From positions 1 through 43,611 of the IMG/VR virus record IMGVR_UViG_3300005518_000022: DNA of 43,611 nt, one strand, 5' to 3'. Below the pieces are notes generated by a model. The model did not search any database. It was given only the letters and a program-made list of their open reading frames with translations, and was not told the DNA's origin. This stretch comes from a virus. A program made the translations under genes and the position numbers. This document shows positions 1,273 to 42,527 of this stretch, piece after piece (position 1 is the first letter of the stretch; the number at the start of each line of letters is the position of its first letter).

Positions 1273-1730
1273 GCGTCCTCCTCGCCCTCCAAGGCACCGC
1301 GCCGTTTGTCGCCACCGATACTGATAGCTTCACGCTCTCCGAGCTGGAGCGGGTCAGCGTCCAAGCTGTCAGCCCCGAATCCCTAGCGCTCAGTGAAGCC
1401 TTTGCGCTCGATGCCAAGTCCCTGGACAGTGAGTTCATGTTGGCTGGGGATGCCCACAGCCTCAATGCCGCGTTGGCCACCAGTGAATCGGGCACGATTT
1501 CGGAGACCGAAACGGCTTCACAGTCTGGCGGTGGCGGCCCGCAGTTCGACACGGATACGTTCACGTTCAGCGAGTCGGAGCGCATCTTCGTCCTGGCGCT
1601 GCCAGAGTTTACGGAAAGCATCGTCCCGCAATATCAGCGCCGTCGCAAGCATCCTGACTATGCGCTGGCGGCGATTGCCGCGGCGAGTTGGGAGACCTAC
1701 TTCGAGTTGCCCGATGATTCTGTGGACTAA
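1269..1730 (+). CDS. Acidic Ser/Glu-rich protein with internal repeats
   Basis: 153 residues starting at an ATG that overlaps the previous stop. It contains repeated acidic segments of the type DTDSFTLSELER and DTDTFTFSESER, a Gly linker (SGGGG), and a short basic stretch QYQRRRKHPDYA near the C-terminus. The repeats suggest small beta or fibrous modules. The family is not recognised. It overlaps the following head-morphogenesis gene by 17 bases and may be a virion surface protein. Confidence 0.6.
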   Translation: MSVLLALQGTAPFVATDTDSFTLSELERVSVQAVSPESLALSEAFALDAKSLDSEFMLAGDAHSLNAALATSESGTISETETASQSGGGGPQFDTDTFTFSESERIFVLALPEFTESIVPQYQRRRKHPDYALAAIAAASWETYFELPDDSVD

Positions 1731-2607
1731 GCCCCCCGTCCAGGTGGTGCAGAAAGCCCCGGGCGACCAATGGTGGCGGGCGCTGCATCGGGTGGCCGAT
1801 GGCTTAGAGCCCGATGTGCGCTTGGCCTTCCTTCGGGCGGTGCGGATGGTGCAGGCCAAGCTCGATATCGTGAACTTGGAAGATGCGTTGAGTCGGGGCC
1901 AGTTAAGCCACGCCGCCTTCTGGGACGCGCTGCAATCGGAGTTGGACTCCTCGATGCGGTCGCCCATTCGGGAAGCCTTGATGGGCGGGGCCGAGATCGC
2001 GGATCGCCGCCTGCCCTCGGGGACGATGCGGTTTGACTTGACCAACCCGGCGGCCGTCCGCGCGGTGGATACCCACGTCGCGCAACTTGTCCAAGAGATT
2101 ACCGACGAGAGCCGGACAGCGATTCAAGACCTGGTGCGGGAGAGTTTGCAAGGGAGTTACGACGTGCATCAGCTCGCCCGCCAAGTCCGAGGGAGTATCG
2201 GCTTGACGAGTCGCTATGCCGTGGCGGTCGAACGCTACCGGGCCAATCTCGTTGAACAGGGGATGGCCGAAGGGAAAGCGGCCGACCGGGCGCAGTCCTA
2301 TGCGGATCGATTGCTCCGAGCACGGGCGGAGAGCATCGCCCGCACGGAAGTGATTCGCGCGACCTCAGCCGGACAGCAAGCCGTGTGGGGCGACGCCCAA
2401 GCGGAAGGCTTGCTCCCCGTGGATGCCCAACGCATCTGGATTGTGACGCCCGATGATCGGCTGTGTGAGATTTGCGCGGCGATGGAGGGCCAAGTCGTGG
2501 GTCTCAACGAACCTTTCCAATCAGACGACGTAGGTGCGGTGGACTATCCGCCAGCGCATCCCGCGTGTCGCTGTGCGGTCGGGATCGCGCCCCAAGAGGA
2601 ACCGTGA
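1714..2607 (+). CDS. Phage head morphogenesis protein (Mu gpF / SPP1 gp7 type)
   Basis: A 297-residue minor head protein of the kind that associates with the portal during procapsid assembly. ATG 1714 is chosen, overlapping the previous gene by 17 bases. The C-terminal part carries the family pattern: a helical segment with RAESIARTEVIRATSAGQQ, then TPDDRLCEICAAMEGQ and the closing HPACRCAVGI with paired cysteines. The Cys pairs may bind metal. Location after the portal and before protease and capsid genes is typical. Confidence 0.88.
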   Translation: MILWTKPPVQVVQKAPGDQWWRALHRVADGLEPDVRLAFLRAVRMVQAKLDIVNLEDALSRGQLSHAAFWDALQSELDSSMRSPIREALMGGAEIADRRLPSGTMRFDLTNPAAVRAVDTHVAQLVQEITDESRTAIQDLVRESLQGSYDVHQLARQVRGSIGLTSRYAVAVERYRANLVEQGMAEGKAADRAQSYADRLLRARAESIARTEVIRATSAGQQAVWGDAQAEGLLPVDAQRIWIVTPDDRLCEICAAMEGQVVGLNEPFQSDDVGAVDYPPAHPACRCAVGIAPQEEP

Positions 2608-3230
2608 AACTCCACCGCAGCGTCGCCATTGTCGGGCTTGACCGTCCCGGCGAATGGGTCTCCCACTTCAATGCGCCAGGAACGGAAGTCTGGAGCTTGA
2701 ATAGCGCCCACGAAGTGCTGCCGGGCGTCCACTTTCATCGCTACTTCGAGCTGCATCGCCGCGCCTATCTCCAGCGATACGAGATGGGGAATTGGGAAGC
2801 GCGCCTCAAATGGATGCGCGACCTGAAACGCAAGGATTGTCCGGTCTATGTCTGGGAAGTCTGGCCGGAATGCAAGACGGCGCGTCTCTATCCGAAAGCG
2901 GACGTGGAGCAGCTCACGCCACACGGGCGCTACCATCTCGGCAGTTTCGATTGGATGGTGGCGCTGGCCATTCTGGAAGGCTTCGAGACGATCAAGCTCT
3001 TTGCGGTGGACTTCTCGCGCGGCGGCGAACCCATCGGGGCGCGGGCGTGTCTGGAATACTGGCTCGGCTTCGCCGAAGGGCGCGGCATTGGGGTGGAAGT
3101 GTTCGGGCGTGGTGACCTGTTCAAGACCTATCAGCTCCTGCGGTCGGACAAGCAATATGGCATTGAGGATGTGCATCTGGTAGAGGATGCGCCCGATATT
3201 TCCGGCGTGGTATGGCAAACGAAACGCTGA
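2604..3230 (+). CDS. Putative GT42-like glycosyltransferase (paralogue of 9937 gene)
   Basis: 208 residues from GTG 2604, overlapping the previous stop as GTGA. The N-terminus SVAIVG and WSLN (30-33), the segment SFDWMVALAILEGFETIKLF (114-133) and VDF (135-137), then LEYWLGFAEGRGIGVEVF (150-167), align by eye with the CMP-binding core of Campylobacter Cst-II-type (GT42) sialyltransferases, and with the larger protein at 9937. The catalytic-type His seen in that paralogue is absent here (IGARACLEYW). Directly upstream of a NeuA-like gene, it could transfer the activated sugar or be an inactive partner. The fold assignment is from memory of the family. Confidence 0.6.
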   Translation: MKLHRSVAIVGLDRPGEWVSHFNAPGTEVWSLNSAHEVLPGVHFHRYFELHRRAYLQRYEMGNWEARLKWMRDLKRKDCPVYVWEVWPECKTARLYPKADVEQLTPHGRYHLGSFDWMVALAILEGFETIKLFAVDFSRGGEPIGARACLEYWLGFAEGRGIGVEVFGRGDLFKTYQLLRSDKQYGIEDVHLVEDAPDISGVVWQTKR

Positions 3231-4339
3231 TCGTCATTCCCGTGCGGGCGGGGTCGGTCGGCATCCCCCACAAAGCCACCCGCTTGCTGGGGGGCGTTTC
3301 CCCGCTGGTGCGAACGATTCGCACCGCGCAGCAAACGGGGCAGACCGTATTGGTCACGACAACCGATGCACGGCTCTCCGAGGTGGCACGGGGCGAAGGG
3401 GCGATCGTCGTTCACGAATCCCCATCGCTGAATCCCGACGGCTCCCGGAGCCTAGATGCGGCAGTCCACGCCGTGGTCGAGCCGTATCCTTGGCCAGCCC
3501 AAACCGTGGTGACGCTCCAAGCGACCTGCCCCTTCACCACCGTGGAGACCGTCCGGCGCTGCATCCAACTATCGCAAGAGCTGGACTGCTCGGTCTTGAC
3601 CGTGCGGGATGACCGGGCGTTGCGCTGGACGATGACGCCCAACGAACCCCATCTCACCGACCGCGCCCCGGCGAGAGTCATTCGCCAGCATATGCCCCCG
3701 ACCTGGCGGGAGACGGGAGCCGTCTTTGCGACGCCCCGACGCTACGTCATATCCGATTACCGCTTCGCACCCACAACCTACTTGCTCCCCGTGACGGGCG
3801 CCGAAGCGATTGACTTGGACGCCCCGGAAGATTGGGCGGTGGCCGAATGGTATGCCGGGGCTCCGTCCACCCGCGAATGCTTGATGGCCCGCGTCTTGGC
3901 GGATCAGCGGCCGCCCGATAGTCCGAGCAACCTCATCATCCAACTCTCCGCTTGGGATGAGGAGACGGACGACACGTCCTTCCGGGATGCCACGCTGCGG
4001 AATCTCTCAGGCGAACTCTTGCAGCCCCGGGGGACGAATACGCGTGAAGAAGCCCAGATGTGTGCGGGGGCAGTGAAGCGGGTGCGGGACGTGCTCTTGC
4101 TGACCTCAGCCTATCACCAACCCCGGGCCTTTCTCACCTTCCTGAAAGTCCTCCAGCAGCATCATTGGGCGCAGCGGGTGCGGCTCTGGAATGTTCCGGC
4201 CGCTTCCCGGATGGACAAGCTCCCAGCCGAATGGCAGAAGATTACCGCCTATCAAACGAAAGGACATGTCGCGTCGTTGGAGGATGGCTTGACCCATCTC
4301 GACTGGCGCGATCGGCAGGTGGCATGCCTGGCGACCTGA
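3212..4339 (+). CDS. NeuA-like CMP-nonulosonate cytidylyltransferase fused to a DUF218-like domain
   Basis: 375 residues. Residues 5-220 match CMP-sialic acid synthetases: nucleotide-binding PVRAGSVGIPHK (10-21), TTTDARL, LQATCPFTT, RETGAVFATPRR and the closing DLDAPEDWAVAEW. The predicted reaction is CTP plus a nine-carbon sugar acid to CMP-sugar. After about residue 225 comes a second region with GTNTREEA and LLLTSAYHQPRAFLTFL, the signature half of DUF218 (YdcF/SanA-like) proteins. Fusion of the two is unusual, and the DUF218 part looks shortened at its front. It overlaps the previous gene by 19 bases and lies in the sugar cassette. Confidence 0.85.
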   Translation: MANETLIVIPVRAGSVGIPHKATRLLGGVSPLVRTIRTAQQTGQTVLVTTTDARLSEVARGEGAIVVHESPSLNPDGSRSLDAAVHAVVEPYPWPAQTVVTLQATCPFTTVETVRRCIQLSQELDCSVLTVRDDRALRWTMTPNEPHLTDRAPARVIRQHMPPTWRETGAVFATPRRYVISDYRFAPTTYLLPVTGAEAIDLDAPEDWAVAEWYAGAPSTRECLMARVLADQRPPDSPSNLIIQLSAWDEETDDTSFRDATLRNLSGELLQPRGTNTREEAQMCAGAVKRVRDVLLLTSAYHQPRAFLTFLKVLQQHHWAQRVRLWNVPAASRMDKLPAEWQKITAYQTKGHVASLEDGLTHLDWRDRQVACLAT

Positions 4340-4341
4340 AA

Positions 4342-4485
4342 ATGACGCTGACTATCCTCGATCTGCCAGACATTATGGAGATAATCGAGGAGTGTCTTTC
4401 AGAGGTGCCCTCATGGCAACAGGAGCAGCTTCGCGCTCGTTTACAGGTCATCATTGATCGCGCCAAGAGCCGATGCGCTACTTGA
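4342..4485 (+). CDS. Small hypothetical protein in sugar cassette
   Basis: A 47-residue frame starting ATG 4342 (an in-frame ATG at 4324 is an alternative) and overlapping the epimerase start by 13 bases. It has an acidic amphipathic segment (DLPDIMEIIEECLSEV) and a basic helical tail (ARLQVIIDRAKSRC). It fills the only gap in the cassette and fits the overlap pattern of its neighbours. No family is recognised. Confidence 0.5.
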   Translation: MTLTILDLPDIMEIIEECLSEVPSWQQEQLRARLQVIIDRAKSRCAT

Positions 4486-5414
4486 TCTGTGGCGGATCGG
4501 GATTTATCGGGAGCCACTTGGCCCGGCATCTTCTCGCTGACGGCCATCAAGTCACCACGGTGGATATGAAAGCCTCTCCTATCCGGGGGACGCATCACGT
4601 CTATGGCAACGTGGCGGAACGCCGCTTGATGACCCCGCTCATCCAGCGCCATGATGGGGTGTTTCACTTGGCTGCGGTGGTAGGATTTGCGAAGGTCATG
4701 CCGAACGTGATCCAGACCGTGACGGAGACTACCGCCACCTCACAAACGGTCTTTGCCATCGCTAGCCAGACCAAAACGCGGACGCTCTTTACCTCGACTT
4801 CGGCAGTTTATGGGCGAGGGAACGGGCATCCCGCGAAGGAAACGGACGATGCCTTAGTGGGGCCCTCTCCGACGCAGAGTTGGAGCTATGCGTATGCGAA
4901 AGCCGCCGCCGAGTGTCTCGCCTTTGCCTATCACCGGGAAGCGCAGGCCCCGATCATCGTGACGCGGGTATTCAATACCGTGGGGCCGGGCCAGTCGGCG
5001 GAAGCGGGATTCGTCTTACCCCGGTTCTGCAAGCAAGCCTTGCATGGGGAGCCGTTGACCGTCTATGCCCCAGGGACACAGCGGCGAACGTTCTGCCACG
5101 TCTCGGATGTGGTGCGAGCGTTAGCGGATTTGATGACGTGTGACGAAGCGGTGGGCGAGCTGGTGAATGTTGGGGGGACGGCGAATGTCTCGGTACGGAC
5201 GCTGGCCGAGGTGGTGCGGTTCCGGGCGAATAGCTTGAGTCCGGTCACCGTCCAGCCGCCGCCCTATCCCACCGGCTATGACGACATCGAAGCGCGGCAA
5301 CCCGATCTGACGAAGATCGCGGGGCTGATAGACTACGTCCCCAAGTATTCATTGGATGAAATGGTGGATGACGGGTTAGCCAGTGTCCAAGAACGGAGGC
5401 TGCAACTCGCGTGA
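4473..5414 (+). CDS. NAD-dependent sugar-nucleotide epimerase (extended SDR)
   Basis: 313 residues. GGSGFIG (7-13) and Asp31 form the NAD-binding Rossmann start; TSTSAVYG (107-114), Tyr139 and Lys143 (YAYAK) give the SDR catalytic set; RVFNTVGPGQ and RTFCHVSDVVRA are typical of GalE-like enzymes acting on NDP-sugars. The TDE motif of 4,6-dehydratases is absent (STSAVYG instead), so an epimerase is more likely than a LegB/PseB-type dehydratase. Its place between NeuA- and NeuB-like genes implies it supplies or edits the precursor sugar. The substrate is unknown. Confidence 0.88.
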   Translation: MRYLICGGSGFIGSHLARHLLADGHQVTTVDMKASPIRGTHHVYGNVAERRLMTPLIQRHDGVFHLAAVVGFAKVMPNVIQTVTETTATSQTVFAIASQTKTRTLFTSTSAVYGRGNGHPAKETDDALVGPSPTQSWSYAYAKAAAECLAFAYHREAQAPIIVTRVFNTVGPGQSAEAGFVLPRFCKQALHGEPLTVYAPGTQRRTFCHVSDVVRALADLMTCDEAVGELVNVGGTANVSVRTLAEVVRFRANSLSPVTVQPPPYPTGYDDIEARQPDLTKIAGLIDYVPKYSLDEMVDDGLASVQERRLQLA

Positions 5415-6436
5415 AGCTGCCCTATTTGATTTGCGAGATTGGGCTCAACCATGACGGATCGCTGACCCGCGCCGTGCAAATGATTTATGCCATTGCGGAA
5501 GCGGGCCGAGGGTATGCGGGGGGCATTGCGGCGAAGTTTCAAGCGGTCTTTCCTGACAGGCTCTGCACCAAGACCGCGCCCGTCTATTTCCAGCAGGACG
5601 GGAATCCTGCCCAGACGCAGCACGAGTTCTTCTCTCGGAGCGCGACGTTCAGCCGCGCCGATTATGAGCACCTGGCGCAGGAATGCCGGAGTGCGGGGAT
5701 AGACTTCCTCTGCACGGCCTTTGATGTGGAGACGGTTGGCTGGCTGGCGCCGCTCGTCAAAGCGTTCAAGGTGGCGAGCGCCGATATCACAAATCTACCT
5801 TTGCTGGAAGCGATCGCTGCCTATGGCAAGCCGATCTACCTGTCCACGGGGGCTGCCACACAGATAGAGGTCGCAAATGCGGTTCGTGGCATTGCCAAGA
5901 GCAGGATCAATGTGCGGCGCGACCTTACGTTTCTACATTGCGTCTTGGCATATCCCACGCCTACAAATCAAGCTGCGCTCAGCCAAATTACCGCCCTACG
6001 GGAGTTTCAGCGCGGCGATTGGTCGTGTCCCGTCGGATATTCCGACCATACCCTGTTCAATCTCGACGTGCTGACTACGGCGTGGCTCTTGGGAGCCTCG
6101 GTGATCGAGAAGCACTTCACGCTCGACAAGGGCCTGCCGGGAAACGACCATTACCATTCGGCGGATGCGGCCGATCTGAAGGCGCTGATCGCCAAGTTCC
6201 AGTTCTTGCAAACCATCATTGGAGACGGGGAAAAGCGGGTGCTCCCGATTGAGGAGGTCTCCCGCCAGTACGCGCGGCGGGGTCTCTATGCGGCTCGCCC
6301 CATTTCAGCGGGCAAGGTGCTCGAAGCAGCTGATGTGGCTATCCTGCGTCCCACCGCGCGGTTAGGCCCCGAACGCTACGCCGAGTTGATCGGTCAGCCG
6401 TTCCCGGAAAGCCGGGCCGAAGGAGAGCCGCTGTAG
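5411..6436 (+). CDS. NeuB-like nonulosonic (sialic) acid synthase
   Basis: 341 residues from GTG 5411 (GTGA overlap). These enzymes condense phosphoenolpyruvate with a six-carbon amino sugar to give a nine-carbon nonulosonic acid. Family landmarks are complete: EIGLNHDG (9-16), KVASADITNLPLL (120-132), LSTGAAT, LHCVLAYPTP, VGYSDHT (His213), EKHFTLDKGLPGNDH (His235), and a C-terminal antifreeze-like SAF domain beginning RRGLYAARPISAGKVL (289-304). The two histidines correspond to the metal ligands of the family. Length is normal, and the gene looks intact and functional. It ends the cassette ahead of a terminator. The exact sugar (NeuAc, legionaminic or pseudaminic) cannot be told. Confidence 0.92.
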   Translation: MKLPYLICEIGLNHDGSLTRAVQMIYAIAEAGRGYAGGIAAKFQAVFPDRLCTKTAPVYFQQDGNPAQTQHEFFSRSATFSRADYEHLAQECRSAGIDFLCTAFDVETVGWLAPLVKAFKVASADITNLPLLEAIAAYGKPIYLSTGAATQIEVANAVRGIAKSRINVRRDLTFLHCVLAYPTPTNQAALSQITALREFQRGDWSCPVGYSDHTLFNLDVLTTAWLLGASVIEKHFTLDKGLPGNDHYHSADAADLKALIAKFQFLQTIIGDGEKRVLPIEEVSRQYARRGLYAARPISAGKVLEAADVAILRPTARLGPERYAELIGQPFPESRAEGEPL

Positions 6437-6494: not shown

Positions 6495-6534
6495 GCGGGC
6501 CTTTCTCAGTTCTGAAGAGGGCCCGCCGTTTTTT
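6495..6534 (+). terminator. Rho-independent terminator before the capsid operon
   Basis: GCGGGC at 6495-6500 pairs with GCCCGC at 6521-6526. The stem extends inward by C6501-G6520 and weaker pairs, and a run of six T follows at 6529-6534. The hairpin separates the sugar cassette from the protease-capsid operon by only seven bases, so capsid transcription must either read through it or be antiterminated. Confidence 0.85.
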
Positions 6535-6541
6535 CTAGGAG

Positions 6542-7072
6542 ATGACGTTGCCGATCGCCGGTTACAAGGATTTTGCTGCGTGCGTCGCGGCGAACAGCGA
6601 CAAGGCCGATCCAAAGGCGTATTGCGGCACGATTGAAGCCGCAACACAGAAAGCCTTGGAGGCGGATCAAGCCTTGAAAGACGGCACCATCCCGGAGCGT
6701 CCCGTCCTCAAAGTGGACGAAGAGCAAAAGATGGTCTTTGGCTGGGCGAACGTCGCCATGCTGAGTGAGACCGAGCCCGTGGTGGATTTGCAGGACGATG
6801 TGATCGACGGCGCGACTCTAGAAAAAGCGGCCTACGATTACGTCCGGCGCTACCGCGTCGTGAACGACATGCATCACGGGCCGGCCGTGGGCGATCTGGT
6901 CGAATCCTTCGTCATCACCCCGGAAAAGCTCAAAGCGATGGGCCTGAAAGCCGATGGGGCTCCGGCGGTCGGGATGTGGGTCGGCTACAAGCTCGATGAC
7001 AGCGAATGGGCGGCATTCAAGCGGGGCGAGCGGCCCATGTTCTCGATCGAAGGGGAAGCGCAGCATGCCTAA
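6542..7072 (+). CDS. Prohead serine protease, XkdF-like
   Basis: A 176-residue maturation protease that would cleave scaffold and head proteins. The core matches the XkdF family: MVFGWANVAM, VVDLQDDVIDGATLEKAAYDY, a conserved H in NDMHHGPAVGDLVESFV, and the MFSIEGEA segment near the end with the likely catalytic Ser. AGGAG at 6537-6541 touches ATG 6542, so TTG 6548 at six-base spacing may be the real start (MPIAGYKDFAACV). The N-terminus contains two cysteines. It overlaps the scaffold gene by eight bases. Confidence 0.82.
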   Translation: MTLPIAGYKDFAACVAANSDKADPKAYCGTIEAATQKALEADQALKDGTIPERPVLKVDEEQKMVFGWANVAMLSETEPVVDLQDDVIDGATLEKAAYDYVRRYRVVNDMHHGPAVGDLVESFVITPEKLKAMGLKADGAPAVGMWVGYKLDDSEWAAFKRGERPMFSIEGEAQHA

Positions 7073-7789: not shown

Positions 7790-8206
7790 ATGGCCTACGA
7801 AATCCCCATTCTGTCCGACTCCTTCCCTTCGACGGCCGCGGTCATTCAATACCGCTTGGTCGTGCTCACGTCGGGCGGCGGGGTCAAGCCGTCCACGGGG
7901 CTCTCGACCGGCACCGCGGCCGTGCGCCCCTTGGGTGTCGCGCAGGACAAGACGACCGGCTCAGGCCGAAACGTCCCCGTGATGACCTTCGGCGTCTCGA
8001 AAGTCGCTGCGTCCACCGGGGCGATCAAGAAGGGCCAGTATCTCCGCCAGACGACAGGCGCTGCCTCGACGGCAACGAATCTCGGGGGCACGGTGAAAGC
8101 CGCCACGGCGCAGAGTGCGTTCTATGTGATTGGGCAGGCCATGACGAGCTGCGCGGCGGCTGCGGCTGGTAGCCAGCGGTTCATTTCCATGAAGTTCCCG
8201 GTGTAA
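7790..8206 (+). CDS. Capsid decoration protein, DUF2190-like (first paralogue)
   Basis: 138 residues in the position and of the size of head decoration proteins that cement HK97-type capsids. The pattern RPLGVAQDKTTGSGRNVPV and the C-terminal AASTATNLGGTVKAAT with an Ala-rich strand are shared with the protein at 9488, showing the two are paralogues. Beta-rich, few charges, no cysteine cluster. It starts two bases after the scaffold stop and precedes the major capsid gene. Confidence 0.75.
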   Translation: MAYEIPILSDSFPSTAAVIQYRLVVLTSGGGVKPSTGLSTGTAAVRPLGVAQDKTTGSGRNVPVMTFGVSKVAASTGAIKKGQYLRQTTGAASTATNLGGTVKAATAQSAFYVIGQAMTSCAAAAAGSQRFISMKFPV

Positions 8207-8218
8207 GGAGACCCGACC

Positions 8219-9181
8219 ATGCCTTTGCCTGCCCCTTCGCAAGTCCATGCGGTTGATGTGCCGCTCTCGAACATCAGCCAGGCGATCATCCAGGACGAGA
8301 TGCTCTACGGGGTCTCCCGCAAGGTGTTCCCCATCGTCCCGACCGACCGCCAGTCGAACAAATACTACGTCTGGGATCAGAAAGACTTCTTCCGCTCGGA
8401 CGCGAGAAAACGCGCACCGGGCGCGGAGTCCGCTGGCTCGGGCCTCCGGCTCTCGACCGATTCCTATTACTGCGATGTCTGGGCCTCCCACTTCGACATT
8501 GACCACCAGACAGCGGCCAATGCGGATGCGGGGATTGACCTGGAACGGGGAGCCGTGGCCAAGGTCACGCGGGACATTCTGATCCAGGAGGACATTGACT
8601 GGGCGGCGACGTTCTTCGTGACGGGCGTTTGGAACTCCTCGGCCGGGCCGGTCAACGGGACCTGGGACTTGGTGAACTCGACGCCCATCGAGGATATGCG
8701 GGCGCGATATTACACGATGGCCCAGAACACCGGGACGCCCCCGAATACCTTGACCTTGGGGGCCAACGTCTTTAAGCGCCTCCAGGATCACCCGGACCTC
8801 TTGGACCGCATCAAGTACACCCAGAAGGCCGTCGTGACGCAGGACTTGATCGCCTCGGTCCTGAGCCTCAGCAATGTGTACGTCCTGTTCGGCGTCCAGA
8901 ACACCGCGACAGAAGGAGCCTCAAGCGGCACCTTCGCCTTCAATGCCAGCAACCACGCGCTGCTCTCCTATGCGCCCCCGGCCCCGAGTCTCTATGCGGC
9001 CTCGGCGGGCTATACGTTCAACTGGACGGGGCTCTATAACGCGAACTTCCCGATCGCTATCACGCAATTCCCCATTCCGCAGCGCAAGATCATTGCGCGG
9101 GTGGAAGGGGAAGCGGCTTTCGATAACAAGCTCGTCGCCACCGTGCTGGGCGAGCTGATCTTGACGGCGGTCGCGTCGTAA
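8219..9181 (+). CDS. Major capsid protein
   Basis: 320 residues with a strong ribosome site (AAGGAG) before ATG 8219. Identification rests on size, position after protease, scaffold and decoration genes, and resemblance to Mu-type or E-type HK97-fold capsid proteins: an N-terminal arm, YYVWDQKDFFRSDARKRAPG, a helical spine (QEDIDWAATFF), and a C-terminal strand set around FPIAITQFPIPQRKIIARVE. The protein begins directly at its likely N-arm with no long delta domain, consistent with a separate scaffold gene. Confidence 0.85.
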   Translation: MPLPAPSQVHAVDVPLSNISQAIIQDEMLYGVSRKVFPIVPTDRQSNKYYVWDQKDFFRSDARKRAPGAESAGSGLRLSTDSYYCDVWASHFDIDHQTAANADAGIDLERGAVAKVTRDILIQEDIDWAATFFVTGVWNSSAGPVNGTWDLVNSTPIEDMRARYYTMAQNTGTPPNTLTLGANVFKRLQDHPDLLDRIKYTQKAVVTQDLIASVLSLSNVYVLFGVQNTATEGASSGTFAFNASNHALLSYAPPAPSLYAASAGYTFNWTGLYNANFPIAITQFPIPQRKIIARVEGEAAFDNKLVATVLGELILTAVAS

Positions 9182-9487: not shown

Positions 9488-9937
9488 ATGGGTCAGCGCA
9501 AGTTCCGCGAAGAAGTGACCGCGCCGAGTTTCAATCCGGTCATCAGCTTCACCTCGACCGCGGCGATTATCAAAAACCGCGTCGTGAAGCTCGCCAACAC
9601 CGGCAATATCAAGCACACCACGGGCACCTCAGGTCGGGCCGTGGTGGGGGTGGCCTTAGCCGCCGCGACCGGCGGAGGCAAGAAGATTCCCGTCCAATGG
9701 TTCGGCAAGGTCGCCATTCAAGTCTCCACCCGCGCGGTCGCCATTGGCGATTGGGTGCGGGCGAGTTCGGGAGCGGCCTCGACGGCCAGCAATCTCGGGG
9801 GCACGGTCCGCACGACCACGGTGAACAATCAGATTCTCGGGATTGCTTTGACCTCAGCGGCGGCGGCGGCGGCGGGCACCCAGCGCACGGTGAACGTGCT
9901 GCTCAATCCCACCATCAACACGGTGGCGCTCGTCTAA
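9488..9937 (+). CDS. Capsid decoration protein, DUF2190-like (second paralogue)
   Basis: 149 residues, related to the protein at 7790. Shared elements are GAASTASNLGGTVRTTT, an Ala-rich strand and the RAVVGVALAAATGGGKKIPV beta segment. GAGGG lies upstream of ATG 9488. Two related decoration proteins flanking the capsid gene could occupy different surface positions or form a mixed lattice. The last base overlaps the next start (TAATG). Confidence 0.72.
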   Translation: MGQRKFREEVTAPSFNPVISFTSTAAIIKNRVVKLANTGNIKHTTGTSGRAVVGVALAAATGGGKKIPVQWFGKVAIQVSTRAVAIGDWVRASSGAASTASNLGGTVRTTTVNNQILGIALTSAAAAAAGTQRTVNVLLNPTINTVALV

Positions 9938-10965
9938 TGCGCGGCGAACGGAAGAAAGTCGCCATCGTCGGCTATACGGCGCATCAGTGTCTCGCGCCTT
10001 GGCTCGATGATGCGTGGGAAATCTGGGGCCTGAACGATCTCTACGAGGTCATGCCGCAATACAACGAGCATCTCCTCAAGGGGGACGAGTGGGAGCGCGT
10101 CCAGTGGTTCCAGGTGCATCGGAACGATCACGGGATGATTCCCGAGGGGGCGCGCGACCCCAAGCATGGGGAGTGGCTCAAGAACGCCAAGTGCCCCGTC
10201 TGGATGTTCGAGCCGCTGCCTGAGGTGCCCCGGGCGCAGCGGTATCCCATCGAGGACGTGTTGAAGCTCTTTCCCCGGGCCTACTTCAACAACACGATCA
10301 GTTGGATGATCGCCAAAGCCCTGTTGGATGGGTTCGAGGAGATTGGCATTTGGGGCGTGGACATGGCTTTGGACGGGGTGCATGGCCAGTCCGAGTACGC
10401 CCATCAGCGGCCCTCCGTGGAATATTTCGTGGGCTGGGCGGATGGGCACGGGGTCCAGTTCTACATCCCCATCGAGTCGGAGATTTGCAAGTGCGGCTTC
10501 CTCTACGGGAAGGACAACATCACGCCCGTCCGCCGGAAGCTCACGGATCGCTTGGAGCAGTTGAAGCAGCAGGAAGCCGGGACCGTGGCGACGTATGAGA
10601 GCATCAAGAAAAACCTCTTTGGGGTCCAAGGGGGCCTGTTCGCCATGCGGAACCTCGATCTCACCGCGATTGCCGAGGACAAGCGCCCGCCGTGGATCGC
10701 GCAAGGCCAGGACTTCGAGCAGAAGGAAGAAGTCTTGAGCCAGCAGTTGGAGGATGCCAAACGGGCTTTGCATGAGATTCGCGGAGCCTTGAACAACACC
10801 GAATGGCTCCTGCGGAACTACTTCCCCGGCGACGGCCCCACACAAGACGTGGCGCGGTTTCCGGGCGCGGTCGTGAGTGACCCCCAGCCGTCCGATGGGA
10901 AGCCCCCGACTAATCGGATTGCGGGGATGGTCTTGCCGGACTATCCGGCGTTGGGAAGCGGCTGA
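9937..10965 (+). CDS. Putative GT42-like glycosyltransferase with coiled-coil extension
   Basis: 342 residues. Residues 7-190 carry KVAIVG, WEIWGLNDLYEVMP (27-40), WFQVHR, NTISWMIAKALLDGFEEIGI (119-138) leading to GVDM, and EYAHQRPSVEYFVGWADGHG (153-172). The order and spacing recall Cst-II (GT42) sialyltransferases, and His156 sits where their catalytic-base His is expected. Proteins of this kind are common in tailed phages but usually uncharacterised. Residues 195-290 are coiled coil and the tail is Pro-rich. A shorter paralogue is at 2604. Location among decoration and connector genes suggests action on, or incorporation into, the virion. The assignment is by eye. Confidence 0.6.
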   Translation: MRGERKKVAIVGYTAHQCLAPWLDDAWEIWGLNDLYEVMPQYNEHLLKGDEWERVQWFQVHRNDHGMIPEGARDPKHGEWLKNAKCPVWMFEPLPEVPRAQRYPIEDVLKLFPRAYFNNTISWMIAKALLDGFEEIGIWGVDMALDGVHGQSEYAHQRPSVEYFVGWADGHGVQFYIPIESEICKCGFLYGKDNITPVRRKLTDRLEQLKQQEAGTVATYESIKKNLFGVQGGLFAMRNLDLTAIAEDKRPPWIAQGQDFEQKEEVLSQQLEDAKRALHEIRGALNNTEWLLRNYFPGDGPTQDVARFPGAVVSDPQPSDGKPPTNRIAGMVLPDYPALGSG

Positions 10966-26557: not shown

Positions 26558-26749
26558 CGGTGCATGGGACGAAGCCCGCGAAATGCTGCACGACCTGAAA
26601 CGCGCCCGCTGTGGCGATGATGGCGAATACTGCCGCCAAGACGGTTGCCCGATCTGTTCCCCGTGCAGCCTGTGCGGCGGGAGCGGCCAGTTGAGCGACG
26701 ATATCATCTGCCCCGAGTGCAAGGGCACCGGCGAGCCCCGGAGGACGAC

Positions 26750-26753
<4 letters not shown>
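26550..26753 (+). CDS. Small DnaJ-type zinc-finger protein
   Basis: 67 residues from GTG 26550. Contains CSLCGGSGQLSD followed by CPECKGTGEPRR, i.e. two CxxCxGxG modules like the zinc domain of DnaJ, preceded by further cysteines (CRQDGCPICSPC). Expected to bind one or two zinc ions. Such mini-proteins in phages may bind unfolded protein or nucleic acid. Function not known. Confidence 0.68.
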
Positions 26754-27480
<727 letters not shown>

Positions 27481-27484
<4 letters not shown>

Positions 27485-27702
27485 CGACGCCGATTGCGGC
27501 GGAGTTCCTCGCCTGGCGCTCCGGCAAGAGCTGGTCTCGTTGGCATATTTCCTGTGAGGATGTGCCGTGGCAGCCCTTGTGCGGCGCGGTGATCCCGAAG
27601 GAAGCCACGACGACGACGGCGCGGCAGATGCTCCGTCCGGGCATGCGGAATGACGAGATGTGCGCGACGTGCTTGCAGAAGCTTTCCGAGAAAGGAACCT
27701 GA
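27481..27702 (+). CDS. Small hypothetical protein with four cysteines
   Basis: 73 residues from GTG 27481. Cys residues in WHISCEDVPWQPLCG and EMCATCLQK are spaced like a zinc site joined by a short loop. It starts TTPIAAEFLAWRSGKSW. No family recognised. Ends overlapping the next ATG by one base. Confidence 0.6.
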
Positions 27703-28387
27703 TGCCGGAGACTGAGGTACTGCCCGTGGCGATCACCCCCGAGGTCAACTTGGGGGTCGTTCAAGCCAACACGCCCTCCGAGTTGGTGGCCGTGGCGACG
27801 GATGCCGCCAATGCCTTGGCGGGAGTGATCGAGTCCAAGAAGCTCTACAACACGATCTCCGGCCGGCGCTATGTGCGGGTCGAAGGGTGGACGACGCTCG
27901 CCGCCATGCTGGGCTGTCTGCCCCGCGAAGTCTCGGTGACGAGGGACGAGGCGGGGACGTACACCGCGACCGTGGAGCTGGCGCGGATGAGCGACGGGGC
28001 GATCCTGACTCGGGCCTCGGCGGAGTGCGGCATGGATGAAAAGACGTGGGCCGAACGGGCCGACTATGCGCGGCGCTCGATGGCGGTCACCAGGGCGACG
28101 AGCAAGGCCTGCCGGATCGCCTTCTCGTGGGTGATGGTACTCGCCGGTTACGAAGTCGTGCCAGCTGAGGAAGTGCCCCCCGGGGGCTTTACGGAGCCGA
28201 AGGCCGAGAAGGCGAAAGATGGTGCTCCGATGATGCCGTTCGGCAAGACGAAAGGGAAACTCCTGTCGGAGCATCCGAGCGACGAGTTGATCGCGGTGCG
28301 GGATTGGTGCAAGAAGAAAGATGCCGTGAAGTTTGCCCAACTGTGCGAGCAGATTGATGACGTGCTCGCCGCACGCCAGGGGGAGTA

Positions 28388-28388
<1 letters not shown>
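27702..28388 (+). CDS. Putative recombination-associated protein (Rad52/ERF-like candidate)
   Basis: 228 residues. The first 150 residues contain GRRYVRVEGWTTLAAMLGCL, ARMSDGAILTRASAECG and RSMAVTRATSKACRIAFSW, the layout of an uncharacterised phage family whose sequence style (T-SKACR-A...LAGYE) resembles single-strand annealing proteins; I cannot prove that. The C-terminus has FGKTKGKLLSEHPSDEL, as in small domains appended to phage exonucleases and helicases (PFGK...GK...). If correct, this is the only recognisable DNA-metabolism gene besides the nucleases. Confidence 0.55.
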
Positions 28389-29187
<799 letters not shown>

Positions 29188-29191
<4 letters not shown>

Positions 29192-38600: not shown

Positions 38601-38957
38601 GACTCCCACAGCAGCCAAACCGCGACCCAAACCGCCAGGCCGTCTCCCAAGAACGGCAACCGCCTACCTCTCGGCGCGCACCCTGGTAACACGGGCGGCA
38701 AGAAAGGTCGCTCGGGGCCGAAGTCTCTTGACTTCTACGTCCAGTGCCAGGGGGCGGTAGATAATCACGTCCTTCCCAAAGTCATCGCGGTCGTGAAAGA
38801 GCGGTCCCCGGTGGGCAAGAAGGGTCAGCCCGATGGGGCGTACTGGGCCGCCGCGAACTTTCTTGCGAAGTATGCCCGCTCGCCCGCGATGCCCTCCATG
38901 CAGCTCAGCCAGGAATCCGGGAAGGTGACGGTCACGCTGGACTTGGGTGAGCAATGA
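38601..38957 (+). CDS. Terminase small subunit, N-terminus possibly frameshifted
   Basis: The open frame encodes GAHPGNTGGKKGRSGPKSLD, then a helical domain (AVDNHVLPKVIAVVKERSPV, YWAAANFLAKYA) and SGKVTVTLDLGEQ, the pattern of small terminase or packaging DNA-binding proteins placed before the large subunit. No start codon fits its beginning. In the next frame CTG 38599 opens TPTAAKPRPKPPGR, exactly the kind of basic N-terminus such proteins have, so a one-base shift near 38640 (error or real) seems likely. Coordinates are approximate on the left. Confidence 0.65.
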   Translation, partial: DSHSSQTATQTARPSPKNGNRLPLGAHPGNTGGKKGRSGPKSLDFYVQCQGAVDNHVLPKVIAVVKERSPVGKKGQPDGAYWAAANFLAKYARSPAMPSMQLSQESGKVTVTLDLGEQ

Positions 38958-40186
38958 CCGCGGCCTTAGAGATTGCCTATCAGCGTCCTTGGCTCTATCC
39001 CGCGCAGAAAGCGGCGATCTTCGCGCCGCAACGCTACGATGTGGTCGAAGCCTCGACCAAGAGTGGCAAAACGCACGGCTGTCTGGTCTGGCTGTTCGAG
39101 CAAGCGTTACAGGGCAAAGCAGGTTGGCAGTATTGGTGGGTCGCCCCCTCGCGCAAGCAGGCGAAGATCGGCTACCGACGGCTGAAGCTCGCCCTCCGCC
39201 GGGCGGGGCATCTGTTCGCGTACAACGATACGGAACTGACCATCACGCTCCCCACGCAAACCGTCTTGTCCTTCCTCACGGGCGAGAAGCCCGATCTGCT
39301 GTACGGGGATGACGTGCATGCGGCGGTAATTGATGAAGCCACCCGCGTCCGGGAAGATGCCTGGCATGCGATCCGCTCGACATTGACCGCGACCCAAGGG
39401 CCGCTCCGCGTGATTGGCAATGTCCGCGGTCGGAAGAATTGGGCCTATCAGTTGGCGCGGAAAGCCGAAGCCGGTGACCCGGACATGCATTACGCCAAGC
39501 TCACCTATCACGATGCGGTGGCGGCGGGCATTGTCGCGGCGGAGGAAATCCTGGACGCTAAACGTCTGCTCCCGGAAGCCGTATTCAACGAGTTGTATCT
39601 GGCGCAGCCGTCGGATGATGGCGGGAATCCGTTCGGCCTCCAGCATATCGCTGCGTGTGTCGGGCCGATTTCGACGGCCGCGCCCGTTGTGTGGGGCTGG
39701 GACTTGGCGAAGTATGTGGACTGGACGGTGGGGATAGGGCTTGATCGCGCCGGCGCGGTCTGTCGCTTAGAGCGATTCCAATCCTCCTGGGATGATACCG
39801 AGCGGAAGATGCTCCAGTCCATCGGCAAAACGCCAGCCTATATTGACTCGACGGGGGTCGGTGACCCGATCTTCGAGCGGCTGGCGCGAAATCGCCCCTG
39901 GCTCCGGGACTACAAGTTCACGAATCAGACGAAGCAGCAACTCATGGAGGGCTTGCAGGTGGCGATTCAGCAGCACCGCATCCGGGTCCCCGAAGGGCCG
40001 ATTCGCGCCGAACTGGACAGCTTTGAGTTCCAGGTGTCGCGCACCAGCGTCAAGTATGGGGCACCCGATGGGATGCACGATGATTGTGTGGTCGCCTTAG
40101 CCCTTGCGGTGCATGGTTGGCAGCCGAGCGTGCAGGCGGGCATCGGCCTTCCCGTTTCTATGGAGCAGGTCAGCACATGGCGCTAA
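38954..40186 (+). CDS. terL: Terminase large subunit
   Basis: 410 residues. N-terminal ATPase: Walker A STKSGKT (34-40) and Walker B AAVIDE (123-128). C-terminal RNase H-like nuclease with acidic residues in WGWDLAKYVDWTVG (Asp250), AYIDSTGVGDPIFE (Asp298) and MHDDCVVALALA (Asp376/377). It drives DNA into the procapsid and cuts it. ATGA overlap with the small subunit. Rather short at the N-terminus but all motors and nuclease motifs are present. Confidence 0.93.
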   Translation: MTAALEIAYQRPWLYPAQKAAIFAPQRYDVVEASTKSGKTHGCLVWLFEQALQGKAGWQYWWVAPSRKQAKIGYRRLKLALRRAGHLFAYNDTELTITLPTQTVLSFLTGEKPDLLYGDDVHAAVIDEATRVREDAWHAIRSTLTATQGPLRVIGNVRGRKNWAYQLARKAEAGDPDMHYAKLTYHDAVAAGIVAAEEILDAKRLLPEAVFNELYLAQPSDDGGNPFGLQHIAACVGPISTAAPVVWGWDLAKYVDWTVGIGLDRAGAVCRLERFQSSWDDTERKMLQSIGKTPAYIDSTGVGDPIFERLARNRPWLRDYKFTNQTKQQLMEGLQVAIQQHRIRVPEGPIRAELDSFEFQVSRTSVKYGAPDGMHDDCVVALALAVHGWQPSVQAGIGLPVSMEQVSTWR

Positions 40187-40485
40187 TCCTGTTCAGCCTA
40201 GTGGTGGCCGGGCTGGTTGTCTGGATGCTGTGTTCCGGCATCAACCATGAATCGCGTCATCCGTCCCTGCCGCGCGAGCGGCGCATGGGGGTCATTCAGC
40301 AGATGGGCCAGCAACTCGGCTGGTGGCCCACGAAGGATTTCTTCGGCCTGAGGCCCGACCCGACGTTCTTACCGCCCGCTGTGGAGGTTGAGCAGCATAC
40401 CAAGACCATCGCGGAAGTGACGGGCGAAACCGCGACGCGCGAAATTAAGAAAGTCGGGCGCGTCGAGGAGATTCTCGGCGCATGA
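40177..40485 (+). CDS. Membrane-anchored protein between terminase and portal
   Basis: 102 residues overlapping terL by ten bases. N-terminal helix ALILFSLVVAGLVVWMLCSG, then a basic/aromatic segment (RMGVIQQMGQQLGWWPTKDF) and a charged C-terminal helix (TIAEVTGETATREIKKVGRV). Unusual between terminase and portal. Possibly a small envelope or head-completion factor. Function unknown. Confidence 0.62.
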   Translation: MALILFSLVVAGLVVWMLCSGINHESRHPSLPRERRMGVIQQMGQQLGWWPTKDFFGLRPDPTFLPPAVEVEQHTKTIAEVTGETATREIKKVGRVEEILGA

Positions 40486-42527
40486 CCGCCCGCGTCAAGC
40501 AGGCCCCTGCGAATGGCAATGGCTCCGCTGTGGACCGCGGGGCGCCCGCCTCCGTTGATGCCTTGATGGGCCTCGGGCGCACAGGGCTCCGTCAATGGTC
40601 GGGCCGCATTGACGAAGAGTTCTTGAAGGAACTGAAGAACGAGCGCAAATATCAGGTCTACAAGGAAATGTCGGAGAACGACCCCATTGTGGGCTCGGTC
40701 CTCCGGGCCATTGAGTTCTTGATTCGCGGCGTAGACTGGCGCGTCGAGCCCGCCGACCAGACGGATACGCAGCAGCAAGAAATGGCCGACCAGATCAAAG
40801 CCCGACTCTTTGGGATGCGACGGTCGTGGGCGGAAGTGTTGGTCGAGATTCTGTCGTTCCTGCCCTACGGCTGGAGCTTCCACGAGCTGCTCTATGAAGC
40901 GAAACCGGATGGCGTGTGGTGGGCGGATTGGCCTGTCCGAGCCCAGGAGACCCTGTTTCGTTGGGTCTTCGTCAAAGGGGCGGACGGCAAGGATACGGAT
41001 GTGCTCGAAGCCATGGAGCAGATGGTGCCCACGGACTCGAAGAAGCGCACTATCCCGATCAATAAAGGGCTGCTCTTTCGGCTGGGGAGCCACAAGAACA
41101 ATCCCGAAGGCATCTCGATCATCCGCAATGCCTATTTGCCGTGGTATTACAAAAACCACCTCCAGCGTATCGAGGCCATCGGGATTGAACGGGACTTAGC
41201 TGGCTATCCCGTGCTCTACGTCCCCGGCGAAGTGTTGGACAATCCCTCAGGGGCTGGATATGTCGCCGCCCAGAAGATCGTCACGAACATCAAACGGGAC
41301 GAACAGGAAGGGGCGTTGCTCAACTCGGGACGCGACGCGCAAGGGAATCCGATGTGGGAATTGAAGCTCCTGTCCACCGGGGGAACCCGAGCCTTCAATA
41401 CGAACGACATTATCAACCGCTACGACACGCGGATCGCCCAGACGTGTCTCGCGGATTTCATCGTGCTCGGTCAGCAGGGCCGGACGGGTTCCTTCGCCCT
41501 GGCGGACAGTAAGACGGAAATCTTCTCGCTGGCGTTGAAAGCCATCTTGGATACGATCTGCGGGACGGTCAACCGGGACGCGATCCCCAAGCTCGCGGAG
41601 TTGAACGGCTGGCCGACGGAGGACTTGCCGCAGCTCGTCCACGGGGATATCGAGTTGCCTGACCTCGCGGCGGTGGGGGCCTATATCACCGCGCTCTCGG
41701 GGGCTGGCGTCCCCTTGTTCCCCGACATGAAGCTGGAGAACCGGCTCCGGGAATTGGGCGGCTTGCCGACCCTTTCGACCGAGGAGTTTGACACTCGGGA
41801 GCAGACCTTACAGCAGGACAAGCAAGCCCAGCAGGAAGCGCAACTGGCGGTCTTGCAGCAGGGACAGCAGCAGACGGACCAGAAGGCGACCGAGGCGGGC
41901 GCGAAAGCCGATGCGGCTATGAAGTGGCTGGCGGATACTCGGCCCGTGTTGGAACGCCGCGACGAGTTGCTCAAGAGTTTTGGCGAACCCAAGCCGCCGA
42001 TTGTCGTACCCGCGCCAAACGTCACCATTCAGATGGCCCCGACGACGGTCACGGCTCCCACTCCCGGGGCGCAGACGTTCAATATCCCCGCGCCGACGGT
42101 GCAGCATAGCGTGGCCCTGGCCCAGCCGATTGAGGTGCAGCCGGCGAGTCCGTCTCCCGTGACGGTGACGGTCGAAGCGGCGAAGGCCGCCGATGTGAAG
42201 GTCGAAGCCCCCATCACGGTGCAAGCGGCTGCTCCCGTCGTCGTTCCTGCGCCCATCGTGACCGTGCCCGTCGCCATTGAAGCGCCCGCCGCGCCAGATA
42301 TCACCGTCAATGTCGCACCCGCTGATGCCCCGATCGTGAAGGTGGATAGTCCTGTGACGGTGGACACCACTGGCTTAGGGGAGGCGGTGCGCGAGCAGAC
42401 GGTCGCCCAGCAGGGCTTGTGGGATCGCTTCTTGAAGGTGCTGCAAACGGTGCTGAAGCGGCCTAAGAAGCTGGATATCACGCTCCCCGATGGGACACAG
42501 GCGGAGGCGAAGCCGTCCGATGAATGA
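40482..42527 (+). CDS. Portal protein (DUF935/Mu gp29-like) with long C-terminal extension
   Basis: 681 residues. The first 430 match DUF935-type portals: MSENDPIVGSVLRAIEFLIR, VDWRVEP, EVLVEILSFLPYGWSFHELL, the clip/stem, and LFRLGSHKNNPEGISIIRNA. Residues 430-500 are a Gln-rich coiled coil (EQTLQQDKQAQQEAQLAVLQ). Residues 505-630 are low-complexity Pro/Ala/Val strands (VVPAPIVTVPVAIEAPAAP), a beta-repeat extension not seen in standard portals, and the last 40 form an amphipathic end. It forms the head vertex through which DNA is packaged. Confidence 0.9.
   Translation: MTARVKQAPANGNGSAVDRGAPASVDALMGLGRTGLRQWSGRIDEEFLKELKNERKYQVYKEMSENDPIVGSVLRAIEFLIRGVDWRVEPADQTDTQQQEMADQIKARLFGMRRSWAEVLVEILSFLPYGWSFHELLYEAKPDGVWWADWPVRAQETLFRWVFVKGADGKDTDVLEAMEQMVPTDSKKRTIPINKGLLFRLGSHKNNPEGISIIRNAYLPWYYKNHLQRIEAIGIERDLAGYPVLYVPGEVLDNPSGAGYVAAQKIVTNIKRDEQEGALLNSGRDAQGNPMWELKLLSTGGTRAFNTNDIINRYDTRIAQTCLADFIVLGQQGRTGSFALADSKTEIFSLALKAILDTICGTVNRDAIPKLAELNGWPTEDLPQLVHGDIELPDLAAVGAYITALSGAGVPLFPDMKLENRLRELGGLPTLSTEEFDTREQTLQQDKQAQQEAQLAVLQQGQQQTDQKATEAGAKADAAMKWLADTRPVLERRDELLKSFGEPKPPIVVPAPNVTIQMAPTTVTAPTPGAQTFNIPAPTVQHSVALAQPIEVQPASPSPVTVTVEAAKAADVKVEAPITVQAAAPVVVPAPIVTVPVAIEAPAAPDITVNVAPADAPIVKVDSPVTVDTTGLGEAVREQTVAQQGLWDRFLKVLQTVLKRPKKLDITLPDGTQAEAKPSDE

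Follow-up and report, generated by a model that had tools for sequence, protein, structure and literature searches.

The window analyzed here (an IMG/VR virus record, IMGVR_UViG_3300005518_000022, taken over its whole length of 43,611 bases) possesses four long plus-strand open reading frames (ORFs) lying among phage head genes, and these encode, in order, a short GT42-like protein (GTs), a NeuA-like fusion protein, a sugar epimerase of the extended short-chain dehydrogenase/reductase (SDR) type, and the nonulosonic acid (NulO; a sialic-acid-like sugar) synthase NeuB. A longer paralogue of GTs (GTl) is encoded downstream of the capsid gene. The 90-base direct terminal repeat at the contig ends makes it probable that the window is a whole genome, assembled in circular form, and the head module, which contains genes for terminase, portal, MuF, protease, a scaffold-like protein, small head paralogues, and the capsid protein, runs across these ends. 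An earlier note, made from the letters of this DNA, had placed a four-gene sugar block between the head-morphogenesis and protease genes, and ORFs 2604–6436 are indeed flanked by a MuF gene and an XkdF-type protease gene (Table 1). The overlapping gene order also described there holds at three junctions (MuF/2604, 2604/NeuA, and epimerase/NeuB), whereas 133 bases separate the NeuA and epimerase genes and NeuB is followed by a terminator-like hairpin.

Predicted enzymes for an activated NulO

The NeuB scores for PF03102 and PF08666 both exceed the cut-off, in agreement with the complete, SAF-domain-containing synthase read previously. Among the NCBIfam models, NeuB scored 256.6 bits against NeuB_NnaB (E = 2.9e-76; cut-off 399.65) and 193.1 bits against PseI (cut-off 340.25); it lies under the curated equivalog cut-offs for these named subtypes, though nearer to NeuB_NnaB than to PseI. 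Its PDB matches include SpsE, PseI, and NeuB, with the spore coat protein SpsE as the best solved relative. In an alignment to Neisseria NeuB (2wqp), E9, K42, Q44, T102, K120, S123, Y181, S211, H213, H235, D246, and R313 are kept, which we take to be metal, phosphoenolpyruvate, or active-site positions, and a single residue of this set is replaced.

The best PDB match of the NeuA-like domain was the Neisseria meningitidis CMP-Neu5Ac synthetase (NmNeuA; E = 6.7e-11), over residues 3–212, that is, the whole domain length, and the two C-terminal Asp residues of NeuA are present, DLD in the window aligning to DID in NmNeuA. The PF02348 match and this alignment uphold the NeuA-type cytidylyltransferase of the earlier note, but the nucleotide motif that it cited is divergent, and the C-terminal DUF218-like domain had gone unmentioned. 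The same fusion is carried by NeuA of L002, a related phage described below. The C-terminal extras of head-module NeuA-like proteins are DUF218-like in the window (3881–4339) and L002, whereas those in L123:3632–5077 and L111:10814–12283 are approximately 250 residues long and match no Pfam family.

The epimerase of the earlier note matches PF01370 and has the motifs TSTSAVYG and YAYAK, which we take from general family knowledge to fit epimerases rather than 4,6-dehydratases, and lacks the Asp-Glu of the latter. It does not define a NulO pathway. A LegB label was rejected on its score (116.8 bits; cut-off 475) and the missing dehydratase motif.

A search of the window found no PF02350 (hydrolyzing 2-epimerase), PF01041 (DegT aminotransferase), or PF02719 (PseB-type dehydratase) protein; these occur in various relatives. 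The NulO pathway encoded in the window is incomplete, with neither a hydrolyzing 2-epimerase nor a dehydratase plus aminotransferase, and, because these early enzymes are absent, the gene content implies that the six-carbon amino-sugar precursor must come from the host, as had been predicted. The same prediction held that the phage makes an activated NulO, and synthesis of the cytidine monophosphate-linked donor (CMP-NulO) by phage enzymes is well supported by the NeuB and NeuA-like families, as far as sequence goes.

GT42-like proteins of the head module

GTs and GTl gave no matches in Pfam, NCBIfam, or PHROGs. Their AlphaFold models (pLDDT 76 and pTM 0.76 for GTs; pLDDT 83 for GTl) were compared with the PDB using Foldseek. 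The top six matches of GTs were all sialyltransferases, led by CstII (1ro8, E = 2.7e-4, probability 1.00), and CstII was also the best match of GTl (1ro7, E = 2.1e-3, probability 1.00). A profile built from 53 members of the family, searched against PDB sequences, had sialyltransferases as its top nine matches, which are singly weak (E = 0.015–0.16) but jointly consistent. No significant sequence match to GT42 was obtained, and one of the 53 members matched Pfam CST-I at E = 0.011. Membership of Maf_flag10 was rejected, since that Pfam model matches none of the 53.

Conserved family features are W-G-L-N, F-x-x-H/N, a helix into G-x-D, a Glu (52/53), an Arg/Lys, and an invariant Tyr. A conserved Asn lies, by eye, near the position of CstII Asn31; unlike this resemblance, identity to CstI/CstII is only 13–15%, and, again by eye, a conserved Glu lies close to where the catalytic His is expected. 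Because that His does not look conserved by eye, the name used here is GT42-like and not GT42. The models support a GT42-like (CstI/CstII) fold for both GTs and GTl, and as regards fold the GT42-like assignment in the earlier note is thereby borne out, both for ORF 2604 and for the paralogue at 9937.

Recurrence in related phages

The block is retained in related phages, as the earlier note had suggested checking. The close relative L002 has the same order as the window, MuF-GTs-NeuA-epimerase-NeuB-protease-scaffold-small head-major capsid protein-small head-GTl, with 34–45% identity for GTs and NeuA vs 70–76% for head genes. Compared with L002, every gene of the cassette has the codon-position signature of purifying selection, third positions being the most divergent, and all cassette frames are open in the two phages; enclosure of the cassette by head genes in both argues against contamination. 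L123 and L111 have the order portal-MuF-NeuA-NeuB-protease-major capsid protein, followed in L123 by a GT42-like gene. In L012, the sugar cassette is of a full NulO type, lies between portal and MuF, and comprises GT42-like, CTP-transferase, hexapeptide transferase, NeuB, PIG-L, and PseH-, PseB-, and PseC-like genes, the last three scoring 41.9, 393.8, and 378.5 bits (cut-offs 93.1, 407.75, and 423.5). NeuB, DegT, and PIG-L genes lie 5' of portal-MuF in L051, L052/L054, and L056, with a GT42-like gene after each capsid gene; L051, tested for it, also has a PseF-like gene. Paired GT42-like genes, the first soon after MuF, were found in L136, L144, L161, L162, L163, L165, L167, L172, and L174.

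NeuB co-occurs with the GT42-like family. In 38 records chosen by MuF similarity alone, it was present in 5/7 family-positive vs 1/31 family-negative records (p = 2.4e-4), the sole family-negative case (G034) being a 19-kb fragment; CTP-transferase follows the association pattern of NeuB. In 35 records picked by the GT42-like family, for which ascertainment differs from that of the MuF set, NeuB was present in 19 and CTP-transferase in 24. Among pooled contigs of at least 45 kb, NeuB was found in 16 of 18 family-positive and none of 13 family-negative relatives. The family forms 24 clusters at 50% identity; in 16 of them one or more members carry NeuB, and a further two clusters have CTP-transferase only. 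The family and NeuB occur together in 25 records, counting the window; a PseB-type dehydratase is encoded in 17 of these and a hydrolyzing epimerase in another two. On gene content, the pattern is broader than the earlier note had it: it recurs in many lineages of phages, and several of these have almost complete pathways. GT42-like contigs of L135, L139, L143, L146, L147, and L150 (G048, G050, G051, G054, G055, and G056) were seen with CTP-transferase but no NeuB; these may use host NulO or another CMP-sugar, or may be incomplete.

A tblastn search of 50,697 isolated-phage records gave no match for GTs; GTl matched only Microcystis phage Mvi-Yong1342-1, beside a terminase gene, and NeuB matched only a bacterial-looking Moritella contig, a marine single-cell virus, and an uncultured phage. 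In the cultured Microcystis phage, the GT42-like member (L180:11905–12708) is annotated as a methyltransferase and directly precedes the terminase genes; this phage may be an accessible experimental system. Viral scans using ORF 2604 alone or ORF 3212 alone gave no matches. A host search of bacterial genome contigs found no relatives with the GT42-like query and, with the MuF query, one Bacillota metagenome-assembled genome without GT or NeuB.

Around the cassette, the two phrog_673 paralogues flank the capsid gene, and the second ends at the start of GTl, likewise in L002. The hairpin between NeuB and the protease gene (6495–6526, then a T run) is missing from the list of a consensus terminator scan, and no equally clear one is listed at this position in L002. 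A small ORF at approximately 4339–4485 was discarded, as it had no convincing Pfam or PHROG match and NeuA of L002 overlaps the epimerase start there instead. Elsewhere in the window, ORFs at 26645–29191 overlap one another and contain long Ala-rich (AAADADA-like) stretches; this zone is rich in GC (0.69–0.70).

Table 1 Features of the cassette and the surrounding head module, in window positions
Feature	Position	Strand	Evidence or remark
GTs, the shorter GT42-like protein (208 aa); its GTG start overlaps the MuF stop	2604–3230	+	AlphaFold fold match only
NeuA-like CMP-sugar synthetase domain (residues 1–215) and DUF218-like domain (~225–375)	3212–4339	+	PF02348 (CTP_transf_3) E = 4.9e-10; PF02698 E = 6.8e-7
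Extended SDR sugar epimerase	4473–5414	+	PF01370 E = 1.1e-44; best PDB matches UDP-glucuronate decarboxylases; 76% identical in L002
NeuB, NulO synthase with SAF domain	5411–6436	+	PF03102 E = 2.7e-61; PF08666 E = 6.2e-5
GTl, long GTs paralogue with added C-terminal helical hairpin, starting at end of second small head gene	9937–10965	+	Fold match; 77% identical in L002
MuF-type head morphogenesis gene	1729–2607	+	PF04233 E = 1.5e-14; phrog_3517 E = 1.3e-47
Terminator-like hairpin and T run between NeuB and protease	6495–6534	+	−21.7 kcal/mol; 1/200 shuffles as good
XkdF-type (S78_2/XkdF) head maturation protease	6542–7072	+	PF14550 E = 9.2e-17
Small head protein, candidate acceptor	7790–8206	+	phrog_673 E = 2.5e-9
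Major capsid protein, candidate acceptor	8219–9181	+	phrog_1005 E = 3.2e-67
Second small head protein, candidate acceptor, just 5' of GTl	9488–9937	+	phrog_673 E = 5e-6
Terminase	38954–40186		Context gene of head module
Portal	40482–42527		Context gene of head module

Candidate acceptors of the sugar

We lean slightly towards the view that the cassette is a phage virion-glycosylation module using a NulO. NeuB would condense the host-supplied six-carbon amino-sugar precursor with phosphoenolpyruvate into a NulO, the NeuA-like domain would convert it into CMP-NulO, and GTs (encoded after MuF) and GTl (encoded after the capsid and small head genes) would transfer the sugar to phage structural proteins in the cytoplasm late in infection, much as Maf enzymes act on flagellin. 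The enzyme families, the GT42-like fold, the placement among head genes, purifying selection, and the co-occurrence can be read from sequence, whereas we infer catalytic activity, the type of NulO, and transfer to the virion.

Known systems resemble parts of this scheme. The central domain of Maf resembles CstII, and Maf O-glycosylates flagellin from CMP-NulO (PMC11339370). Maf (Maf_flag10), found with pseudaminic or legionaminic acid pathways, shares with the phage proteins the CstII-like core, the CMP-NulO donor, the proposed protein acceptor, and a gene near that of an abundant structural protein (PMC11339370). It differs in that the phage proteins have no Pfam Maf match and consist of one small domain (GTs) or a domain plus helical hairpin (GTl), that phage head genes take the place of flagellin genes, and that the pathway of the window is incomplete. 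In mycobacteriophages (Che8 gp110, Corndog gp38, and Myrna), phage enzymes glycosylate the capsid and the tail tube (PMC12363180); phage-encoded transferases for virion proteins would be the shared trait. Synthesis of NulO or of a CMP-sugar is not reported for those phages, whereas the window phage has genes for making the donor, and its transferases seem to belong to another family. In Bacillus subtilis, SpsE is required for legionaminic acid synthesis and the NulO decorates the spore crust, a protein layer; this bacterium is stated to have no GT42-family enzyme (PMC7439481). SpsE being the best solved relative of the window NeuB, the sps CMP-legionaminic acid pathway is a further parallel, but the window lacks its dehydratase and aminotransferase.

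Several observations weigh against virion glycosylation. The GT42 enzymes known so far modify glycans rather than proteins, and both acceptor and product are predicted here. The catalytic His of CstII is present, in the by-eye alignment, in only some family members, with a near-invariant Glu close by. The NeuA nucleotide motif reads RAGSVGIPHKA in the window and RGGSRGIPRKA in L002, so that the first Lys and the Asn of canonical RxxSKGxxxKN (N. meningitidis, RQNSKGLPLKN) are replaced in the window; in NeuB, the Asn184 equivalent is L179, at a position that is variable in other solved relatives too. Several relatives have NeuB 10–20 kb or more from the GT genes, and some of the records behind the co-occurrence counts are related to one another, with one cluster making up three of the five MuF-set positives, while many are fragments.

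If CMP-NulO is made, the GT42-like proteins might instead sialylate a host surface glycan (lipopolysaccharide, capsule, or similar) and block superinfection or binding of progeny to debris. The characterized GT42 enzymes (CstI, CstII, and the Pasteurella enzyme) are generally known to sialylate lipooligosaccharide, and serotype-altering phage glycosyltransferases are known, as cited in PMC12619734. Yet the genes belong to the late head module and are not placed beside early or lysogeny genes, divergent phages repeatedly have one GT42-like gene after MuF and a second after the capsid gene, and a scan of window ORFs, which was not exhaustive, found no integrase, flippase, or O-acetyltransferase. 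We consider modification of the host envelope unlikely, if still a substantial alternative, and favor virion glycosylation because of the Maf analogy and the mycobacteriophage precedent. Attachment of the sugar to phage DNA as an anti-restriction hypermodification is very improbable: the cassette sits in the head module, the same non-exhaustive scan found no modified-base gene among the window ORFs, and to our knowledge no CMP-sugar DNA glycosyltransferase exists, even if phage glycosyltransferases that act on DNA are known (cited in PMC12619734).

The GT42-like proteins could also be head-assembly or nucleotide-binding (MptE/DUF115-like) proteins, with the neighboring NulO genes serving something else. 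Their weaker fold matches to viral MptE-like and DUF115 proteins and to thiamin pyrophosphokinase, the possibly structural helical hairpin of GTl, and the presence of the family in some contigs without NeuB in view would fit this; we nevertheless find it rather improbable, as sialyltransferases top three independent searches (GTs fold, GTl fold, and 53-member profile) and the family strongly co-occurs with NeuB and CTP-transferase. Slightly less probable again is a passenger cassette, a decaying or neutral moron with no virion role. The incomplete pathway and the faster divergence of GTs and NeuA than of the head genes speak for it, but the open frames and third-position divergence, the gene order kept in L002, and the recurrence of the theme in distant lineages speak against it.

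In the literature searched (open-licence papers only), we met no account of a NulO/GT42 cassette in a phage head module. NulO synthesis, protein glycosylation with NulO, and phage virion glycosylation are each known already; what seems new, judged by these papers, is their combination in head modules with an unnamed transferase family. An ocean-wide survey left out viral auxiliary genes on contigs with "lipopolysaccharide islands" (glycosyltransferase, nucleotidyltransferase, and sugar epimerase) (PMC11360552), and because at least one survey made this exclusion, NulO cassettes may be routinely filtered out of viral surveys.

The window phage and many distant relatives probably coat their own particles (or the host) with a sialic-acid-like sugar. 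We give slightly less than even odds to the existence of a large, as yet undescribed class of tailed phages whose virions are decorated with NulO through the phages' own CMP-NulO pathway and an unnamed GT42/Maf-like head-module family, which has no match in Pfam or PHROGs and is almost missing from cultured phages. If true, uncultivated phages would commonly coat their virions with sialic-acid-like sugars, the unnamed family would gain a function testable by one co-expression experiment, and phage assembly would be tied to bacterial sialic-acid chemistry, with small candidate protein sialyltransferases on offer.

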